A stretch of 64,000 nt of DNA from Sanghuangporus weigelae (lineage: Eukaryota; Basidiomycota; Agaricomycetes; Hymenochaetales; Hymenochaetaceae): the NCBI GenBank assembly GCA_033182465.1, contig CP137323.1, forward strand, positions 372,001 to 436,000, read 5' to 3'. How positions within the stretch are numbered: position 1 is the stretch's first letter; each line of letters opens with the position of its first letter. A program made the position numbers and the translations under genes. Positions 13,557-46,741 of the stretch are shown one piece after another. The notes under the pieces were generated by a model. The model was not told where the DNA came from and made no database searches. It was given only the letters and a program-made list of their open reading frames with translations.

Positions 13557-14915
13557 ATGTCGAACTCCGGAGCAAAACTCTTTCAGCCCATTCGAGTAGG
13601 CGGCGTCGAACTCGCCCACCGCGTTGTCCTAGCACCTCTCACGAGATACCGCGCAGACGATGCCCACGTACCCACAGATCTCATGGTCGAGTACTATGCT
13701 CAGCGCGCAAGTGTTCCGGGCACGCTGTTGATCACCGAGGTTGCCTTCATCGCTCCGAGAGCAGGTGGATTTAACAACATCCCAGGGATCTGGAGTGAGG
13801 AACAGATCGCGGGATGGAAGAAGGTATAAAGGATTCGGGTCACTTGAAGCACGTTACATACGTAGTTGGTTCTGATATGGACTTGAAGGTCGTTGATGCC
13901 GTCCATAATCAAGGCTCCTTCATTTACATGCAGCTTTGGGCTCTTGGTCGCGCAGCGCAACCTGCAATCATTTCGCAACCCGATTCGCCGAGGAATCCTG
14001 GAGGACCTTATCCATATGTATCGGCATCCGACATCCCGCTTTCTACTCACAATGACGGAATCAAGCCGCGTCCGCTCACGAATGAAGAAATTATTGAGTA
14101 TATAGATCTCTATGGCCAGGCTGCGTATAACGCGGTCCATGGTGCCGGCTTCGACGGCGTTGAAATCCATGGAGCGCACGGATACTTGATAGACCAATTT
14201 ACACAGGACGTGTCGAATAAACGTACGGACCAATGGGGAGGAAGCATAGAGAATCGCATTCGCTTTGCACTAGAAGTGACGAAGAAAGTAGTCAGTGTCG
14301 TTGGTGAGGAGAGAACGGGAATTCGGTTAAGCCCATTCAATACCTTCCAAGGTAAGCATGCATGGCAACATGATTACTGCACCATGCGTCCCTCATCCGC
14401 AGAAATAAAGACATGAGAATGAACCATCCTCAGCCAACGTTTGCTGCGCTCGTTTCACGTATCAGGGACGCCTATCCACGTTTCGCCTATTTGCATGTCG
14501 TCGAGCCTCGTATCGCAGGCGCCTCGGACCGCACGCCACTAGAAGGAGAGTCGAATGATTTCCTTCGTGTAATTTGGAAAGGACCGGATAGCGTGAAGAA
14601 TGGGTCTGTGTACATCAGCGCCGGCGGATACACCCCCCAGGATGCTCTCGAGCACGCGCAAAAATACGAGGAACTCGTTGCATTCGGGAGGCACTTCATT
14701 TCAAACGTGCGTGCACCTCACGTTCTAGTTCTTCACTGTACCTTTTTATTCATATCTTACAGCCAGATTTGCCCGCACGGATAAAGAACAACATTCCATT
14801 CGCGTCATATAACCGTGATACGTTCTATACGGTAGGCCGTCCAGAAGGATACACCGACTATCCGTTCGCGGATGATGAGACCGAACACAAATACCAGGAG
14901 AAACGTGCAGAGTGA
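13557..14915 (+). CDS. Old yellow enzyme (NADH:flavin oxidoreductase), copy 1
   Basis: FMN-dependent ene-reductase that reduces activated C=C bonds with NAD(P)H; the natural substrate is unknown. It is a TIM barrel of about 393 residues, starting MSNSGAKLFQPIRVGGVELA. Family blocks: HRVVLAPLTRYRA (FMN-binding PLTR), GTLLITEVAFI, MQLWALGRAA, NPGGPYPYVSASDI, GFDGVEIHGAHGYLIDQF (His-x-x-His active-site pair), RTDQWGGSIENRIRF, NGSVYISAGGYTP and FGRHFISN. Exons are 13557-13823, 13889-14351, 14411-14706 and 14763-14915, all joins in frame. The C-terminus reads PDLPARIKNN to YPFADDETEHKYQEKRAE. One of five paralogues in the window; it shares all three intron positions with copies 3 and 4. Convergent with the methyltransferase gene, about 300 bp away. 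Confidence 0.9.
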
Positions 14916-17237: not shown

Positions 17238-18563
17238 ATGCCAAACGAGGACGCGAAGCTGTTTCAACCAATCCGCGTTGGCAACCTGAACCTCGCCCAC
17301 CGCGTTGTCCTCGCCCCGTTGACTCGGTACCGAGCGTCTGAGGCGCATGTCCCGACGGATTTTATGCTTGACTATTATTCACAACGCGCAAGTACTCCAG
17401 GTACTTTGTTGATCACAGAAGCGACTTTCATCGCCGCAAAGGCAGGTGGATACGACAATATTCCGGGCATCTGGAGTGACGCACAGGTCGAAGCTTGGAA
17501 GAAGGCGAGTCATGGGTTCCTTCGCTTTATTCGTTCCAGCGTATTAAGGACCACATAGATTGTAGATGCTGTCCATGCACGCGGCTCCTACATCTATCTG
17601 CAGATGTGGCAGCTTGGGCGAGCCGCTGATCCCGAGGTTCTCGCCAGGCCTGATTCCCCTTCGAACCCGGGAGGCCCGTATCCATTTGTATCTGCATCCG
17701 ACATTAAAACGCCCGAAAAACAAGACGGCCCAGCACCGCGTCCGTTAACGCATGAAGAAATCCTCGAATACATTGAACTCTTCGGTCAGGCTGCACACAA
17801 TGCAGTGCACCGTGCACGGTTTGATGGAGTAGAGATTCACGCGGCTCACGGGTATCTCATTGATCAGTTCACTCAAGATGTATCCAATAAGCGTACCGAC
17901 GTGTGGGGCGGAAGCATCGAGAACCGGACGCGTTTTGCGCGAGAGGTCGTCAAAAAGGTCGTGAGCGTTGTCGGAGAGGAACGAACTTCAATCCGATTGA
18001 GTCCGTTTAACACATGGCAAGGCATGCATATGGAGCACCCTCAGCCAACCTTTGCATATCTCGTTTCTCGCATCCGCGAGGATCATCCACGCCTTTCGTA
18101 CCTCCACGTAGTCGAACCACGAGTAGCAGGGATCTTCGACAGAACTCCCTCCTCCGGCGAATCCAATGAATTTCTTCGCGCCATTTGGAAGTCTCCACAG
18201 GCAGCTCAGAACGGTTCAGTATATTTTTCTGCTGGAGGTTACACGCCAGAACGAGCGTTGCAAGGCGCCGAGCAGGCTGATGACGTTATTGTATTCGGAC
18301 GCTTCTTCATTTCTAATGTAGGTTCCCTTCTTCTTACCTTCACTCGCGATATTGAAGTACTTTCCGACATTCCGCAGCCCGACCTCCCGACACGCATCAA
18401 GAAGGGCCTCCCGCTGACTCCGTATGACCGCAAGACATTTTATGACGCGTTGAATCCGAAAGGCTACATCGATTACCCGTTTGCCGATCCCGAGGCCGAA
18501 GCTCATTATAAATCGAGAAAAGGACTTCGTAATGGCGCTCCAAGCGAACAAACACCCGAATAA
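17238..18563 (+). CDS. Old yellow enzyme, copy 2 (lacks one family intron)
   Basis: FMN-dependent ene-reductase, substrate unknown. It starts MPNEDAKLFQPIRVGNLNLA and shows LAPLTRYRA, GTLLITEATFI, LQMWQLGRAADPE, GFDGVEIHAAHGYLIDQF-type active site (read as RFDGVEIHAAHGYL), RTDVWGGSIENRTRF, NGSVYFSAGGYTP and FGRFFISN. One intron follows the ...QVEAWKK exon and another lies at 18318-18377. The latter is 60 nt with no in-frame stop, so its retention would simply add 20 residues. The intron that copies 1, 3, 4 and 5 carry after ...FxTFQ is absent: the codons run straight through TWQGMHMEHPQPTF. The C-terminus is longer than in the paralogues (LRNGAPSEQTPE). About 400 residues. Convergent with the FAD monooxygenase about 210 bp downstream. 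Confidence 0.88.
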
Positions 18564-23243: not shown

Positions 23244-23468
23244 ATGTATTTGAGGCGTTTGATCGCTTTACTCTCGTTCGCGTTATTCGCAGCCGCAGCT
23301 CCGGCTCCGGCTCCCATTGTACGTAAAGTCGTCATGGTTTTTTGAAGATGGATTCTGACCTACATAAATCAGGCCGAAACTGAAGTGAAGCGCTCTGCTG
23401 GGGGCATCCAGCAAGCGGATTGGAAGCGCGGTGGTGGTCAGGATTGGAAGCGTGGTGCCGAATGGTAA
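23244..23468 (+). CDS. Small secreted Kex2-processed peptide precursor (56 residues)
   Basis: A two-exon gene. Exon 1 (23244-23318) encodes a signal peptide, MYLRRLIALLSFALFAAAAP, followed by APAPI. A 54-nt GT...AG intron (23319-23372, with a CTGAC branch-like site and an in-frame stop) joins in phase 0 to exon 2 (23373-23468). The mature part reads AETEV-KR-SAGGIQQADW-KR-GGGQDW-KR-GAEW-stop: three dibasic Kex2 sites release peptides that all end in Asp/Glu-Trp, and the last needs no cleavage. The Ala-Pro run before the first KR resembles dipeptidyl-aminopeptidase trimming signals of pheromone precursors. This matches the organisation of fungal Kex2-processed repeat proteins (alpha-factor-like and dikaritin precursors), but I do not recognise the peptide family. 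Basidiomycete mating pheromones are CaaX-type and this has no CaaX end. Role unknown. Confidence 0.75.
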
Positions 23469-26400
23469 CGCATGAACGCTGCGTAAGCGCCTCCTTTTTC
23501 CTTGCGCCAAAATCGCATCTTTATATTTGTAGATAGCCGCTTTTTTTTCGAAACCTGGTAACATGTGGCGGGAAGCGAGGGAAGATGAATTGAAGAGGTG
23601 AAAGGCTTATTGAATAGAATAAGTGAACGACGGTGGATCCGGGTTCCTGGCCCGAAGAGTAGTGCAGTTCGCGTTGCCCCCGGATGCTTCTAGCAGCACT
23701 TGGAATGCTTAATTGTGGTGTTGAAAAACGAGTTCAACCCAGGATGGTGAAGCACGGTGTATGTATCATGTTAATTTTTGCGAGCTCAAAGGGATCCCGA
23801 ATTTGTCGGTGTCTGCCTACATTGCGTCGCATGTAACTGCGTCTGAGTGCGACTGCGCATTTTCGCAACGGAGTTTGAGCACAGTACCGCAGCCCCTTGC
23901 TGAACGAAATGTCCCAGGCAATGCACGACGGTTCCGGAGTCATCGGCCTTTATCGAACATGAGCATCATGGGAAGTCGGATGATGACCCTGCATGTATCG
24001 TGACGACAAGTAAGGAATGTCGTAGTCAAACTCGGAGTAAAGGATAAACTGAGGTCCTGCAGTGCCTAAGAGTGCCTAGCGAAAACTTCATGACTTGCAT
24101 CAGGGCAGACTTTTTGCTCCGTCCGTATAATACGACCTCACGAAAGTCCACGGATCTAGGAAATTGAATCGGTTGAATTTTCGCTCGTTCATGTTTACCA
24201 CTTAAAATGAGCCAAGATCTGTGAGCAAGCACAGACACCGGAGACGTTGAAGAAGAAAGGCAGATTGATTACAAGAGTGGCTTGACGTCATATTTTTGAT
24301 TCGGAGTTTGTATTTCCGTTTCACACGATGATCGACGGATCCTACACTTTCTTCTAACCCTTCGGTTTACCTTGTTCGGTACTTCAAACGAGCCTATTTC
24401 CTGGCCATACTCATTCCGAACGTTTTATAGCGAGAATAACATGCGATTTAATCTTTCTGGAGCGTATTGATGAGCATGAACAGCGATTACCGGTTACGAA
24501 TGCAACAATCTGTCAACTTTGTATCCTCCAACTGCGATCCGACTCGGGTTTATTCTTTCTAGGTACGTACAATGCTGCGCGATGGCCATTGCAAGAAACA
24601 CACACATATATTTCCAATCAAATAGCAGTGGTACAGACGTTGTTTATTTTCACATTGTCATGGTGGCAGATTACTTCTACAGTTACCCTCAGGAACGATA
24701 TTTGCACACTTTTGCAGTGCTCAGGGTTGCATTCAGATCAATCCCGGACAATCACACAAGCCTTGAGCCTCCACAGACTCGATATCCTTGTACACCGCTC
24801 TTCAGGATGCTGCGATGCTCTGTTCGACCTCATTTCCTTGTCATGGCGGTACATTTCTTATAACAACAAGACCGCCAAGTTGGCAATGAATCACTGTCCT
24901 CAAGGATATTAATCATCGGATATGCAGTATGTTTCCGTGAGAATATCTCTCTTATGCTATCTCCGGCCTTGAAAACCTTTTCGTTTTATGCCGAGGAGCT
25001 CTTGTTACTGGTCGCATAGCTGGCCGACAGGACCTGTTTTCTCCTAGGTTGAGATTATTTGGCTTACATTGAGTTCGGCAAGTGAGTCCGGCTCGTTGTT
25101 TGTAGGAAGCTTGTTCAATCAACCACAAGGTCGCTCAGTTTCTGCTGCATTGACGAGCCACGCATTTCTTCCTGCAACGCGAGTGTCAGAAGCAGTATAT
25201 ACTGTTGCTAGAGTATCAGTGCCACGACTATGTGAACGGACGTCTCCCTAGGACCGGAAGCTCGAGCTGAGACATGCGATTCGAAGCTTATACTCACAGC
25301 TCGCTTGCTGCCTTGGTCATCGGTCAGTGAAAGCCAGACTGCAGGTGATTTGCCCTACATCGGGATGCTGTGTCTGCGAACAACACTAGATACACAGGGC
25401 TCTTCGAGAACAGGAAAGTTCTTGAGTCTATGGAAAGACTTTTCCCATTCTGGTCGCCCTGTGAACACGTTTCGTGTTCATCAGTATGATGATCTGCGGG
25501 AGTCGACCAAAGCTTCGTGCGTCTATACAAAGTTGCCGGCTTTCAGTCTGCTACTGACTGGTAAATAATTGCGGGCTTCTCACGGCACGGCATTCCATCT
25601 TTGGGCCAACGGGCCGTGTGCTTACATTGACAATCTCTGACGCAGGCCGCTCGGTGGATCAAGGAGATAACCTATCAAGCAGGCAGCGAAGCAGGCAGCG
25701 CTACCGCAACAAGGTTTTGCAGACGTCCTGTACTCCAGCAACCCTGTCGTAACTGAGAGACTTCGTCACATGCACGAGCGGCGATTAGGGAGCGCGGGAT
25801 ACATAAGAACATCCCATTGTGCTCACGATGTGACTTCCCCCCGTATATGCATTAGTCAATATCGGACATCTCATCTTACTCAAGTTCATCATGCATCTTT
25901 GCTTAATAGGTTGCCAACGGGCAATGGATTCGATTTTTCCAATCCGGCGAAAAAAGATCATCATTCTGCTCCCAACATCTTTCTACAAGGCCCGAAGATA
26001 AGGTCCAGACATTGAGACAATGGTCGTATCCACCGTATCCATCACCAGAGCTCCCTGCCCATCCGTTTGCTCGCCGGCGCGCCTTTGACATCTGATTCAA
26101 ATTGGTCGATGTTGATTCACCAAAACTTTCTATTACATAGTGTGGTGTAGAGCATGTCAAAGCCTTCCTAAACTCTCATGATAGCACTAGTGGTGTTCCA
26201 TCTTGTGCTGGAATGTTCTCCCCTTCTGAGTTAATTTGCACTTGAGTGTTTTGTTTGATCTGTGATTTTGATCTCCAGCACGGAATGCGTTGCAAATATA
26301 TCATGTGCATACGCCGAATCAGTCGTTCATGGTCGCTGACTCTTCTGAATCTCCCATCAAAGTCCATGCAGGTTCGTGCAGATACCATATCTGCTGCCGG

Positions 26401-42042: not shown

Positions 42043-43434
42043 ATGCCAAACTCCGGAGCGAAGCTCTTTCAGCCCATCCGCGTCGGCAGCGTCAACCTCT
42101 CGCACCGTGTCGTACTCGCACCGCTCACGCGGTACCGCGCAGATGCAGCGCATGTCCCGACGGACATAATGGCGGACTACTACGCGCAGCGCGCAAGTGT
42201 ACCTGGGACGCTGCTTATCACCGAAGCGACTTTCATCGCTGCGAAAGCTGGGGGGTATGAGCAGGTCCCCGGCATCTGGAGCGATGCGCAGGTCGAAGGG
42301 TGGAAGAAGGTGAGGGCATTGAGAATGTTAATTATACGGTATTGAAAAGACGATAGGTTGTCGATGCAGTGCACGCGCAAGGCTCCTATATCTACATGCA
42401 GCTCTGGGCAATCGGACGCGCAGCGATCTACGATGTTATTACTCAACCCGATTCTCCGAGGAACCCAGGCGGGCCGTATCCCTACGTCTCTGCATCTGAT
42501 ATACCACTCAGCTCTAAGAAGGACAACCCTAGTCCCCGCCCTCTCACACATGAAGAGATCCTAGAATACATAGAGTTGTACGGCCAAGCTGCGCAAAATG
42601 CCGTGCATAGAGCTGGCTTTGACGGTGTGGAACTTCACGGCGCGCACGGATACCTTATCGACCAATTCATACAGGACGTGTCAAACAAACGGACAGACCA
42701 ATGGGGCGGAAACATTGAAAACAGGACGCGTTTCGCGCTCGAGGTTATTAAGAAAGTTGTGAGCGTGGTAGGAGAGGAACGCACTGGTATTCGTCTGAGT
42801 CCATTCAGCACTTTTCAAGGTAGGTTTACTACATTCGGCTAGGTCAGGATTCTTGTGATGATGGTTTTCTTCCGTGAAGATATGCACATGGAACATCCAC
42901 AGCCGACGTTCGCGTACTTGGTCGCACGCATGCGCGAGGCATATCCGCATTTCTCCTACATCCATGTTGTTGAACCCCGTGCAGCTGGAAGTGCGGACCG
43001 TACCCCGCTCGCGGGCGAGTCAAATGATTTTCTCCGTGCCATTTGGAAAGGTCCCAGCAGCGAGAAGAATGGATCCGTATACCTTAGTGCTGGAGGATAC
43101 AAGCCTGAGAGTGCTCTCGAAGATGCAGAGAAGACTGACGACCTCATTGTCTTTGGAAGATTCTTTATTCCAAACGTACGTTTCATTTTTCGGCTTTGAC
43201 ATCTCCGTCTCTAAAAACCTGTTACTAAACCGCGGCTTTTCACCTTGAACGACACACTAACAGCCCGATCTTCCGGCGCGTATCAGGAAGGGCATTCCGC
43301 TCGCACCGTACGATCGCGCGACATTCTATACTCCTGGAAACCCGGCTGGATACATCGATTACGCTTTTGCGGACAAGGAGACGGAGGAGAGATACAAGGA
43401 GAAGAAAGGCGAGCGCGAGAAACTTAGTGCATAG
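42043..43434 (+). CDS. Old yellow enzyme, copy 3
   Basis: FMN-dependent ene-reductase, substrate unknown. Starts MPNSGAKLFQPIRVGSVNLS; blocks are HRVVLAPLTRYRADAAHVPT, GTLLITEATFIAAKAGGY, MQLWAIGRAA, NPGGPYPYVSASDIPL, GFDGVELHGAHGYLIDQF, RTDQWGGNIENRTRF (the usual GGS is GGN), NGSVYLSAGGYKP and FGRFFIPN. Three introns at the family positions, including the phase-1 intron after ...FSTFQ whose next exon begins AT-ATG (giving QDMHMEHPQPTF). The C-terminal exon after the last intron starts PDLPARIRKGIPLAPYDRAT and ends EKKGEREKLSA. About 390 residues, apparently intact. Closest in sequence to copies 1 and 2. The next gene downstream on the same strand is the small serine palmitoyltransferase subunit. 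Confidence 0.9.
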
Positions 43435-45326: not shown

Positions 45327-46741
45327 TCAACTGGTACGATGTACATTTGAATTCTTCCGTTTGTTCCAAATCTTCTGGTACTTGTGCTCCGTCTCATCAT
45401 CCGCAAACGGATAGTCAATGTATCCCGCCGGCAACCCTATTGCGTAGAAAAGATCGCGGTTGTATGGAGCAAAGGGAATATCTTTCTTGACTCGTGCGGG
45501 CAGATCGGGCTGTCATATCGAGAAGATGAGTAAGCGTCCATTCAAGAAGAAAAAGGAAGATTAAAATATATAAAAGCTCACGTTTGAAATAAAGTGTCTC
45601 CCAAACGCAACGAGTTCTCCATCGTTCTCTGCTTGCTCCAGCGCTCCCTTTGGTGTGTATCCGCCGGCATTTATACACACGGACCCATTACTTGCACTAT
45701 CGGGCCTCTTCCAGATGGTCCTCAGGAAGTTGTTGGACTCGCCAACAAGCGCCTCGCGGTCAGATGCACCGGCTATTCGAGGCTCGACGACGTGCAGATA
45801 GGCAAACCGGGGATAGGCTTCTCTAATACGAGAGACAAGTGCGGCAAAAGTTGGCTCAGGATGATCCATCCTCATATCTGAGGGGCAGAAAATCAGTCAG
45901 CATACCAGTCAGTCTGCTATTAAACGTAACTGACCTTGAAATGTATTAAATGGGCTTAAGCGAATGCTCGTCCTCTCCTCACCTACAACTCCAACAACTT
46001 TTTGGACTACCTCCAAGGCGAAGCGTATCCGATTCTCCATACTGCCTCCCCACTGGTCTGTACGTTTGTTCGATACGTCCTGCGTGAACTGGTCTATCAA
46101 ATATCCGTGGGCTCCATGAATCTCGACACCATCGAAACCTGCACGGTGGACGGCGTTATGCGCTGCTTGCCCGTAAAGTTCAATGTATTTAAGAATTTCG
46201 TCGTGAGTCAGAGAACGTGGTTTAATCCCATCGTTGCGGTCACTGAGAGGGATGTCAGATGCGGATACATAGGGATACGGTCCACCCGGGTTCTCTATGC
46301 AATCATGCTGCGAAATGATTGCTGGATCTGCTGTCCGTCCTACTGCCCAGAGTTGCATGTACATGAAGGAGTCTTGCGCATGGACGGCATCAACGACCTA
46401 GCAGGATTCTTTCCGTCAGAGAAAGAGAAAAAAAGAAGTGGTATAAGGTACTATGAATAAGCAATCCTTACCTTTCTCCAACCTGAAATTTGTTCTTCGC
46501 TCCAGATACCCGGGAGATTATTGTACCCACCTGCCCTCGGAGAGATCACAGTAGCTTCAGAAATCAGCAGAGTACCAGGAACGCTGGCGCGTTGTGAGTA
46601 ATACTCCACCATGAGATCGGTAGGTACGTGGGCATTGTCTGCACGAAAGCGTCCGAGAGGCGCTAGGACAATGCGATGCGCTAGCTCGATGTTCCCTAAG
46701 CGTATCGGTTGAAACAGCTTTCTTACCTCGGAACCGGTCAT
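45327..46741 (-). CDS. Old yellow enzyme, copy 4 (divergent FMN site)
   Basis: FMN-dependent ene-reductase, substrate unknown. The start at 46741 (MTGSEVRKLFQPIRLGNIEL) aligns with the other copies; an in-frame ATG at 46840 would add 33 residues. Blocks: HRIVLAPLGRFRADNAHVPT, GTLLISEATVISPRAGGY, MQLWAVGRTADPA, NPGGPYPYVSASDIPL, GFDGVEIHGAHGYLIDQF, RTDQWGGSMENRIRF, NGSVCINAGGYTP and FGRHFISN, ending PYNRDLFYAIGLPAGYIDYP and KIWNKRKNSNVHRTS. The FMN-contacting Thr of the PLTR motif (Thr37 in yeast OYE1) is Gly here (PLGR), and the segment before NPGGP (QHDCIE) also differs from its paralogues (QPDSPR). Three introns at the family positions. Intact reading frame; possibly altered redox behaviour. 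Confidence 0.88.

Follow-up and report, generated by a model that had tools for sequence, protein, structure and literature searches.

The window analysed here is a stretch of 64,000 nucleotides spanning positions 372001-436000 of contig 6 in a 13-contig, 33.87-Mb genome. Its plus strand carries a small two-exon gene, hereafter the target, whose predicted spliced product is a precursor of 56 amino acids, MYLRRLIALLSFALFAAAAPAPAPIAETEVKRSAGGIQQADWKRGGGQDWKRGAEW-stop. Exon 1 (23244..23318, 75 nt; MYLRRLIALLSFALFAAAAPAPAPI in translation) encodes a signal peptide and an Ala-Pro spacer. It is followed by a phase 0 intron of 54 nt (23319..23372) that reads GTACGT...CTGAC...CAG, with CTGAC resembling a branch site, and by exon 2 (23373-23468, 96 nt including the stop). 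Exon 2 begins with the end of the pro-region and the first Kex2 site, AETEV-KR (23373..23393), and continues with core peptide 1, SAGGIQQADW (23394..23423), as delimited by predicted processing, a second Kex2 site, KR (23424..23429), core peptide 2, GGGQDW (23430..23447), a third Kex2 site, KR (23448..23453), and the C-terminal peptide GAEW with the stop codon TAA (23454..23468). The overall plan is therefore a signal peptide, an Ala-Pro spacer and AETEV-KR-SAGGIQQADW-KR-GGGQDW-KR-GAEW-stop. The original prediction had described this gene from its letters: its coordinates, intron and translation all matched on re-checking (75 nt, 54 nt and 96 nt), and the spliced translation bears out the signal peptide, the spacer, the three Lys-Arg sites and the Asp/Glu-Trp peptide ends.

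The signal peptide, MYLRRLIALLSFALFAAAA, contains the hydrophobic core LIALLSFALF, whose mean Kyte-Doolittle value is 2.81 over 10 residues, a heuristic estimate with an assumed cleavage point. The ATG has a G at the third base before it and a C/T-rich stretch upstream. Left unspliced, exon 1 reads on to APIVRKVVMVF-stop, and the frame of exon 2 presents no Met upstream. Thus, only splicing would unite the signal peptide with the repeats. The three KR sites cut the precursor into four fragments, three of which end in Trp, the exception being the pro-region end AETEV. Each of the three Trp residues of the target closes a fragment (p = 0.0008 by the hypergeometric test, on the assumed cut of the signal peptide). 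Cores 1 and 2 are alike at 7 of 12 alignment columns (58%), and the tail GAEW shares three and two residues with them. Two of the three fragments that follow a Kex2 site start with X-Ala (SA and GA), and GGGQDW starts with neither X-Ala nor X-Pro.

When the genome was searched with the target precursor, one weak match was returned besides the target itself (52% identity over residues 4-55, E 0.015). The coding frame of this match, which we named KEP-A, lies on contig 1 (3325750-3326052), has no intron and stays open for 101 residues from its Met; it reads MRVTALIVALAAITFVSAAPAP...NADW-KR-GPPDW-KR-EADAEPGAPAW-KR-DADAEPGAPAW-RR-...TPHW-KR-EADASQE-KR-...IYTW-stop. A second gene of the same plan, KEP-B, is located about 4 kb before KEP-A on the same strand of contig 1 (3321041-3321599). 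It comprises four exons; the three GT-AG introns between them measure 62, 76 and 64 nt and are uniformly of phase 0. The first intron lies just after the Ala-Ala-Pro that closes the signal peptide, a place similar to that of the target intron. The cores of KEP-B are QNGMGGSGKDW (twice), QGGFGGFSKDW, QGFGGVSKDW and QGGFGGFGKDW, and in most cases EA, EP or a longer run of X-Ala/X-Pro comes before the core.

All three precursors terminate in Trp-stop, and their plan is strongly shared. Fragments ending in Trp number six of seven in KEP-A and five of six in KEP-B, and the placement of Trp at fragment ends departs from chance in both (p = 1.3e-6 for KEP-A, where two of eight Trp are internal, and p = 1.7e-7 for KEP-B). 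With the first fragment of each precursor excluded, fragments after a Kex2 site start with X-Ala or X-Pro in two of three cases in the target, six of six in KEP-A and five of five in KEP-B. Both contig 1 genes are thus richer than the target in repeats and STE13 spacers. Judged from the sequences, the kinship of the target to KEP-A and KEP-B is weak: when KEP-A and KEP-B were each searched against the genome, up to E 10, the query alone came back, without the target. Common descent of the three genes is nevertheless likely. A Pfam scan assigned none of the three precursors to a family.

We also searched the genome with two nucleotide patterns, both of which cover AAR-MGN codings only, such that W-RR or otherwise coded members may escape. 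The single DWK pattern (GAYTGGAARMGNG) was found at 67 sites, hardly above the 52 of the reversed control. Sixty of these sites were examined, 58 with up to 45 same-frame residues per side and two in the window, the other seven being on contigs 11, 12 and 13; eight of the 60 form repeats, and all eight belong to the target, KEP-A or KEP-B. The double W-KR pattern yielded 34 matches (reversed control 21), of which 30 were checked in frame and four as matched letters only. In-frame matches beyond the three precursors (L008, L010, L011, L013, L014, L015, L017 and L026) were classed as chance by frame alone. Five loci with a single DWKR were viewed more widely, and none presented a second DW-KR unit with the repeat plan. 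One locus (L049, 1477-1533) contains an open stretch of 19 residues ending in ADWKRDWGHHGI and then a stop; it has a single DW-KR with no same-strand repeat nearby and is probably due to chance. Among the double W-KR matches, a near-identical sequence of 51 bases occurs six times on contigs 3, 5, 8 and 10 (e.g., contig 8, 1985380-1985430, and contig 10, 1549901-1549951) and is perhaps a dispersed repeat. One of its copies is located about 3.5 kb from an STE3 match on contig 10.

Enzymes able to process such precursors are represented in the genome by Pfam domain matches: two loci for P_proprotein (KEX2 type), one locus for DPPIV_N (STE13 type) and 24 exon matches at several loci for Peptidase_S10 (KEX1 family). 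Together with the two richer genes of like plan, these domains support the prediction of a Kex2-type secreted precursor. We consider it probable that the target belongs, as a short example, to the Trp-ending KEX2-processed repeat precursors (KEPs) of basidiomycetes, which would yield linear secreted peptides trimmed by KEX2, KEX1 and STE13. The signal peptide would route the precursor into the ER, and in the late Golgi each of the three Lys-Arg pairs would be followed by a KEX2 cut. Lys-Arg would then be taken off by a carboxypeptidase of the KEX1 type, and an STE13-type dipeptidyl aminopeptidase would probably take off X-Ala, that is, SA from core 1, leaving GGIQQADW, and GA from the last peptide. 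The secreted products are expected to be linear, (SA)GGIQQADW and GGGQDW being examples. A guess from the class is that these peptides most likely serve as signals outside the cell or in interactions with other organisms. Since Trp also occupies the true C-terminus of the target, KEP-A and KEP-B, where no KR follows, it is probably part of the function of the mature peptides and not just a feature of the cleavage site.

Precursors of this kind are already known. Umemura (2020) counted 1680 KEPs in 271 of 317 basidiomycete strains (PMC7329392), and many basidiomycete KEPs have a C-terminal Trp in their cores, including Lentinula edodes 2599, Pleurotus ostreatus 1091723, P. eryngii 1439342 and Coprinopsis cinerea 490115 and 447393 (PMC9769878). 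Mass spectrometry has detected KEP peptides ending in Trp: SGTGEASAADW in Lentinula edodes, and the three peptides MSGVAADW, SGVAADW and LSGVAADW in Pleurotus ostreatus (PMC9769878). Vogt et al. (2022) pointed out the common -AADW ending and the STE13 motifs (PMC9769878), and the string AADW also appears in a review of mushroom peptides (PMC10417677). The view that the target belongs to a family not previously recognised is therefore not sustained. A further Trp-ending peptide, QYKAPSW, came from Coprinopsis KEP 490115 expressed in Pichia (PMC9769878). No phenotype was seen in Coprinopsis when six KEPs were deleted, and synthetic peptides had no antibacterial activity (PMC9769878).

The target shares with Trp-ending KEPs of Agaricomycetes a signal peptide, dibasic Kex2 sites and short cores ended by Trp. 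Its core 1 ends in -ADW, close to the -AADW of the published Lentinula and Pleurotus peptides, and KEP-A and KEP-B have STE13 spacers like several published Trp-ending KEPs. In contrast to these, the target presents two loosely alike cores and a tail with almost no STE13 spacer, and its cores are unlike the published ones except for their ending, in a comparison based on reported peptides and descriptions with the precursors unaligned. The target is thus ordinary in kind and slightly unusual as a minimal form of two cores and a tail. Published detection rules demand three or more fragments that resemble one another (Le Marquer; PMC6339444) or a fragment that resembles two or more of the rest (Vogt; PMC9769878); judged from these rules as described, the target probably fails them. 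Our literature search found no paper joining the string DWKR with KEX2 and signal peptide. A search of a collection of viral contigs, where no relatives were expected, returned 119 stretches that match by pattern, none of them related.

The small size of the target raises the question of whether it is a decaying copy, a former full Trp-type KEP resembling KEP-B that has since been shortened and is perhaps unexpressed. It is the shortest of the three precursors, its repeats are the fewest and the least alike, it lacks long STE13 (EA/EP) spacers and its last peptide has only four residues. However, the frame, the start, the splice sites, the signal peptide, the three KR sites and the three Trp ends are all intact, and we regard such a relic as unlikely.

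Alternatively, the target could be the precursor of an alpha-type mating pheromone. Ascomycete alpha-factor precursors have the same layout of signal peptide, Kex2 sites and X-Ala/X-Pro dipeptides, which is pronounced in KEP-A and KEP-B. Le Marquer et al. (2019) described alpha-pheromone-like KEPs in Basidiomycota, which are discussed there as possible hormones or pheromones, with hormone roles being speculative (PMC6339444). Nonetheless, mating use of alpha-factor-type precursors is not expected in a basidiomycete (PMC9769878, PMC6339444). We rejected this candidate on the lack of any match to the STE2 profile (PF02116) in the genome, a weak test given that 14 control genomes gave none either. 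STE3, a pheromone receptor, gave 14 exon matches, which fall into five places distributed over contigs 10 and 7 and are all unlinked to the target, KEP-A and KEP-B. These STE3 places, the lack of an STE2 match and the type of KEP point to a basidiomycete as the source. A mating pheromone is a very improbable reading.

Returning to the target as a short Trp-ending KEP, its products may still serve communication of another sort. C-terminal Trp, mostly as Asp/Glu-Trp, is found at 14 of the 17 fragment ends of the target, KEP-A and KEP-B, while the rest of the fragments varies freely; of the three ends without Trp, two close pro-regions and one closes a fragment of KEP-A. It is conceivable, if quite doubtful, that this Trp is a shared address for one receptor family, for instance of a non-mating STE3 type, and that the precursors constitute a system of endogenous peptide hormones with a role other than mating in basidiomycetes, the target being its minimal member. 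Among basidiomycete peptides, the Rep1 repellent peptides of Ustilago are likewise secreted and released by Kex2 but differ in being 37 residues long and acting on the hyphal wall (PMC6339444).

The original prediction had also considered a RiPP precursor. Dikaritins such as ustiloxin, phomopsin and asperipin derive from precursors with a signal peptide and repeated Kex2 sites, a layout matched by the target (PMC9769878), and their cores are cyclised by UstYa-type oxidases. UstYa-type genes (DUF3328) are present in the genome as 13 exon matches. Moreover, a DUF3328 neighbour was reported for 17 of 76 KEPs homologous to six reference putative pheromones of Basidiomycota, Pleurotus 1091723 among them (PMC7329392), which speaks somewhat for a dikaritin-type precursor. 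Across all 1680 basidiomycete KEPs, however, only 103 have such neighbours (PMC7329392), and the cores of the target, unlike dikaritin cores, contain no Tyr. All 13 UstYa matches are located on contigs 2, 7 and 8 and none on contig 6 or contig 1, in an exon-wise search of the genome that divergent copies may escape. We therefore rejected a dikaritin cluster; the RiPP branch of the prediction finds no local support, and cyclised products seem highly improbable.

Nothing around the target suggests a cluster for peptide modification among the 10 open frames of the window that were given to Pfam. Family assignments were obtained for four of them, of which two are GH88 pieces, one is an M14 carboxypeptidase and one is an FMN oxidoreductase. 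The last of these, at 17559-18563 of the window, is one of several similar frames resembling paralogs of the old-yellow-enzyme (FMN oxidoreductase) type, the others (13799-14416, 42357-42842 and 45909-46397) having been recognised by eye. On contig 7 (about 540257-588114), two divergent UstYa-type pairs (540-541 kb and 587-588 kb) are arranged in mirror order with an STE3-type match between them (564-565 kb), which might represent an inverted duplication around a receptor gene.

Finally, we asked how often the arrangement arises by chance, simulating 660 Mb with an order-3 Markov model that had been trained on the two strands of the window. In-frame W-(K/R)R pairs occurred 738 times, or 38 per 33.87 Mb, indicating that Trp before a dibasic site is not rare by itself. 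Pairs of [DE]W-(K/R)R in one open stretch occurred twice (0.10 per 33.87 Mb), and such a pair followed by [DE]W-stop did not occur in the 660 Mb. The window contains one W-(K/R)R pair, one [DE]W-(K/R)R pair and one pair followed by [DE]W-stop, and at least three loci of the genome carry [DE]W-(K/R)R pairs against the 0.10 expected, on which basis a chance arrangement was rejected. An informal signal-peptide filter applied to both strands of the window passed a single ATG, that of the target, with cut-offs chosen with the target known and too strict for gene finding. As predicted, a longer frame of 107 residues is present on the minus strand (23283-23606). It is extremely improbable that there is no gene here or that this minus-strand frame is the true coding sequence: the longer opposite frame and the slight excess of pattern matches over reversed controls would favour this, but two frames exceed 107 residues within 3 kb around the target (184 and 127, the 184-residue frame without a Pfam family), two more genes share the plan, and an exon with a signal peptide and fitting splice sites lies directly upstream of the repeats.

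The target thus probably falls within a class whose Trp-ending peptides are present in edible mushrooms and known from mass spectrometry. With at least three genes of this type, including a minimal one and a pair lying 4 kb apart, the genome offers a small set suited to deletion and peptidomics. If the target is real, it suggests that short members slip under the published repeat-count rules, and the counts of the Trp-ending KEP class may therefore be too low.
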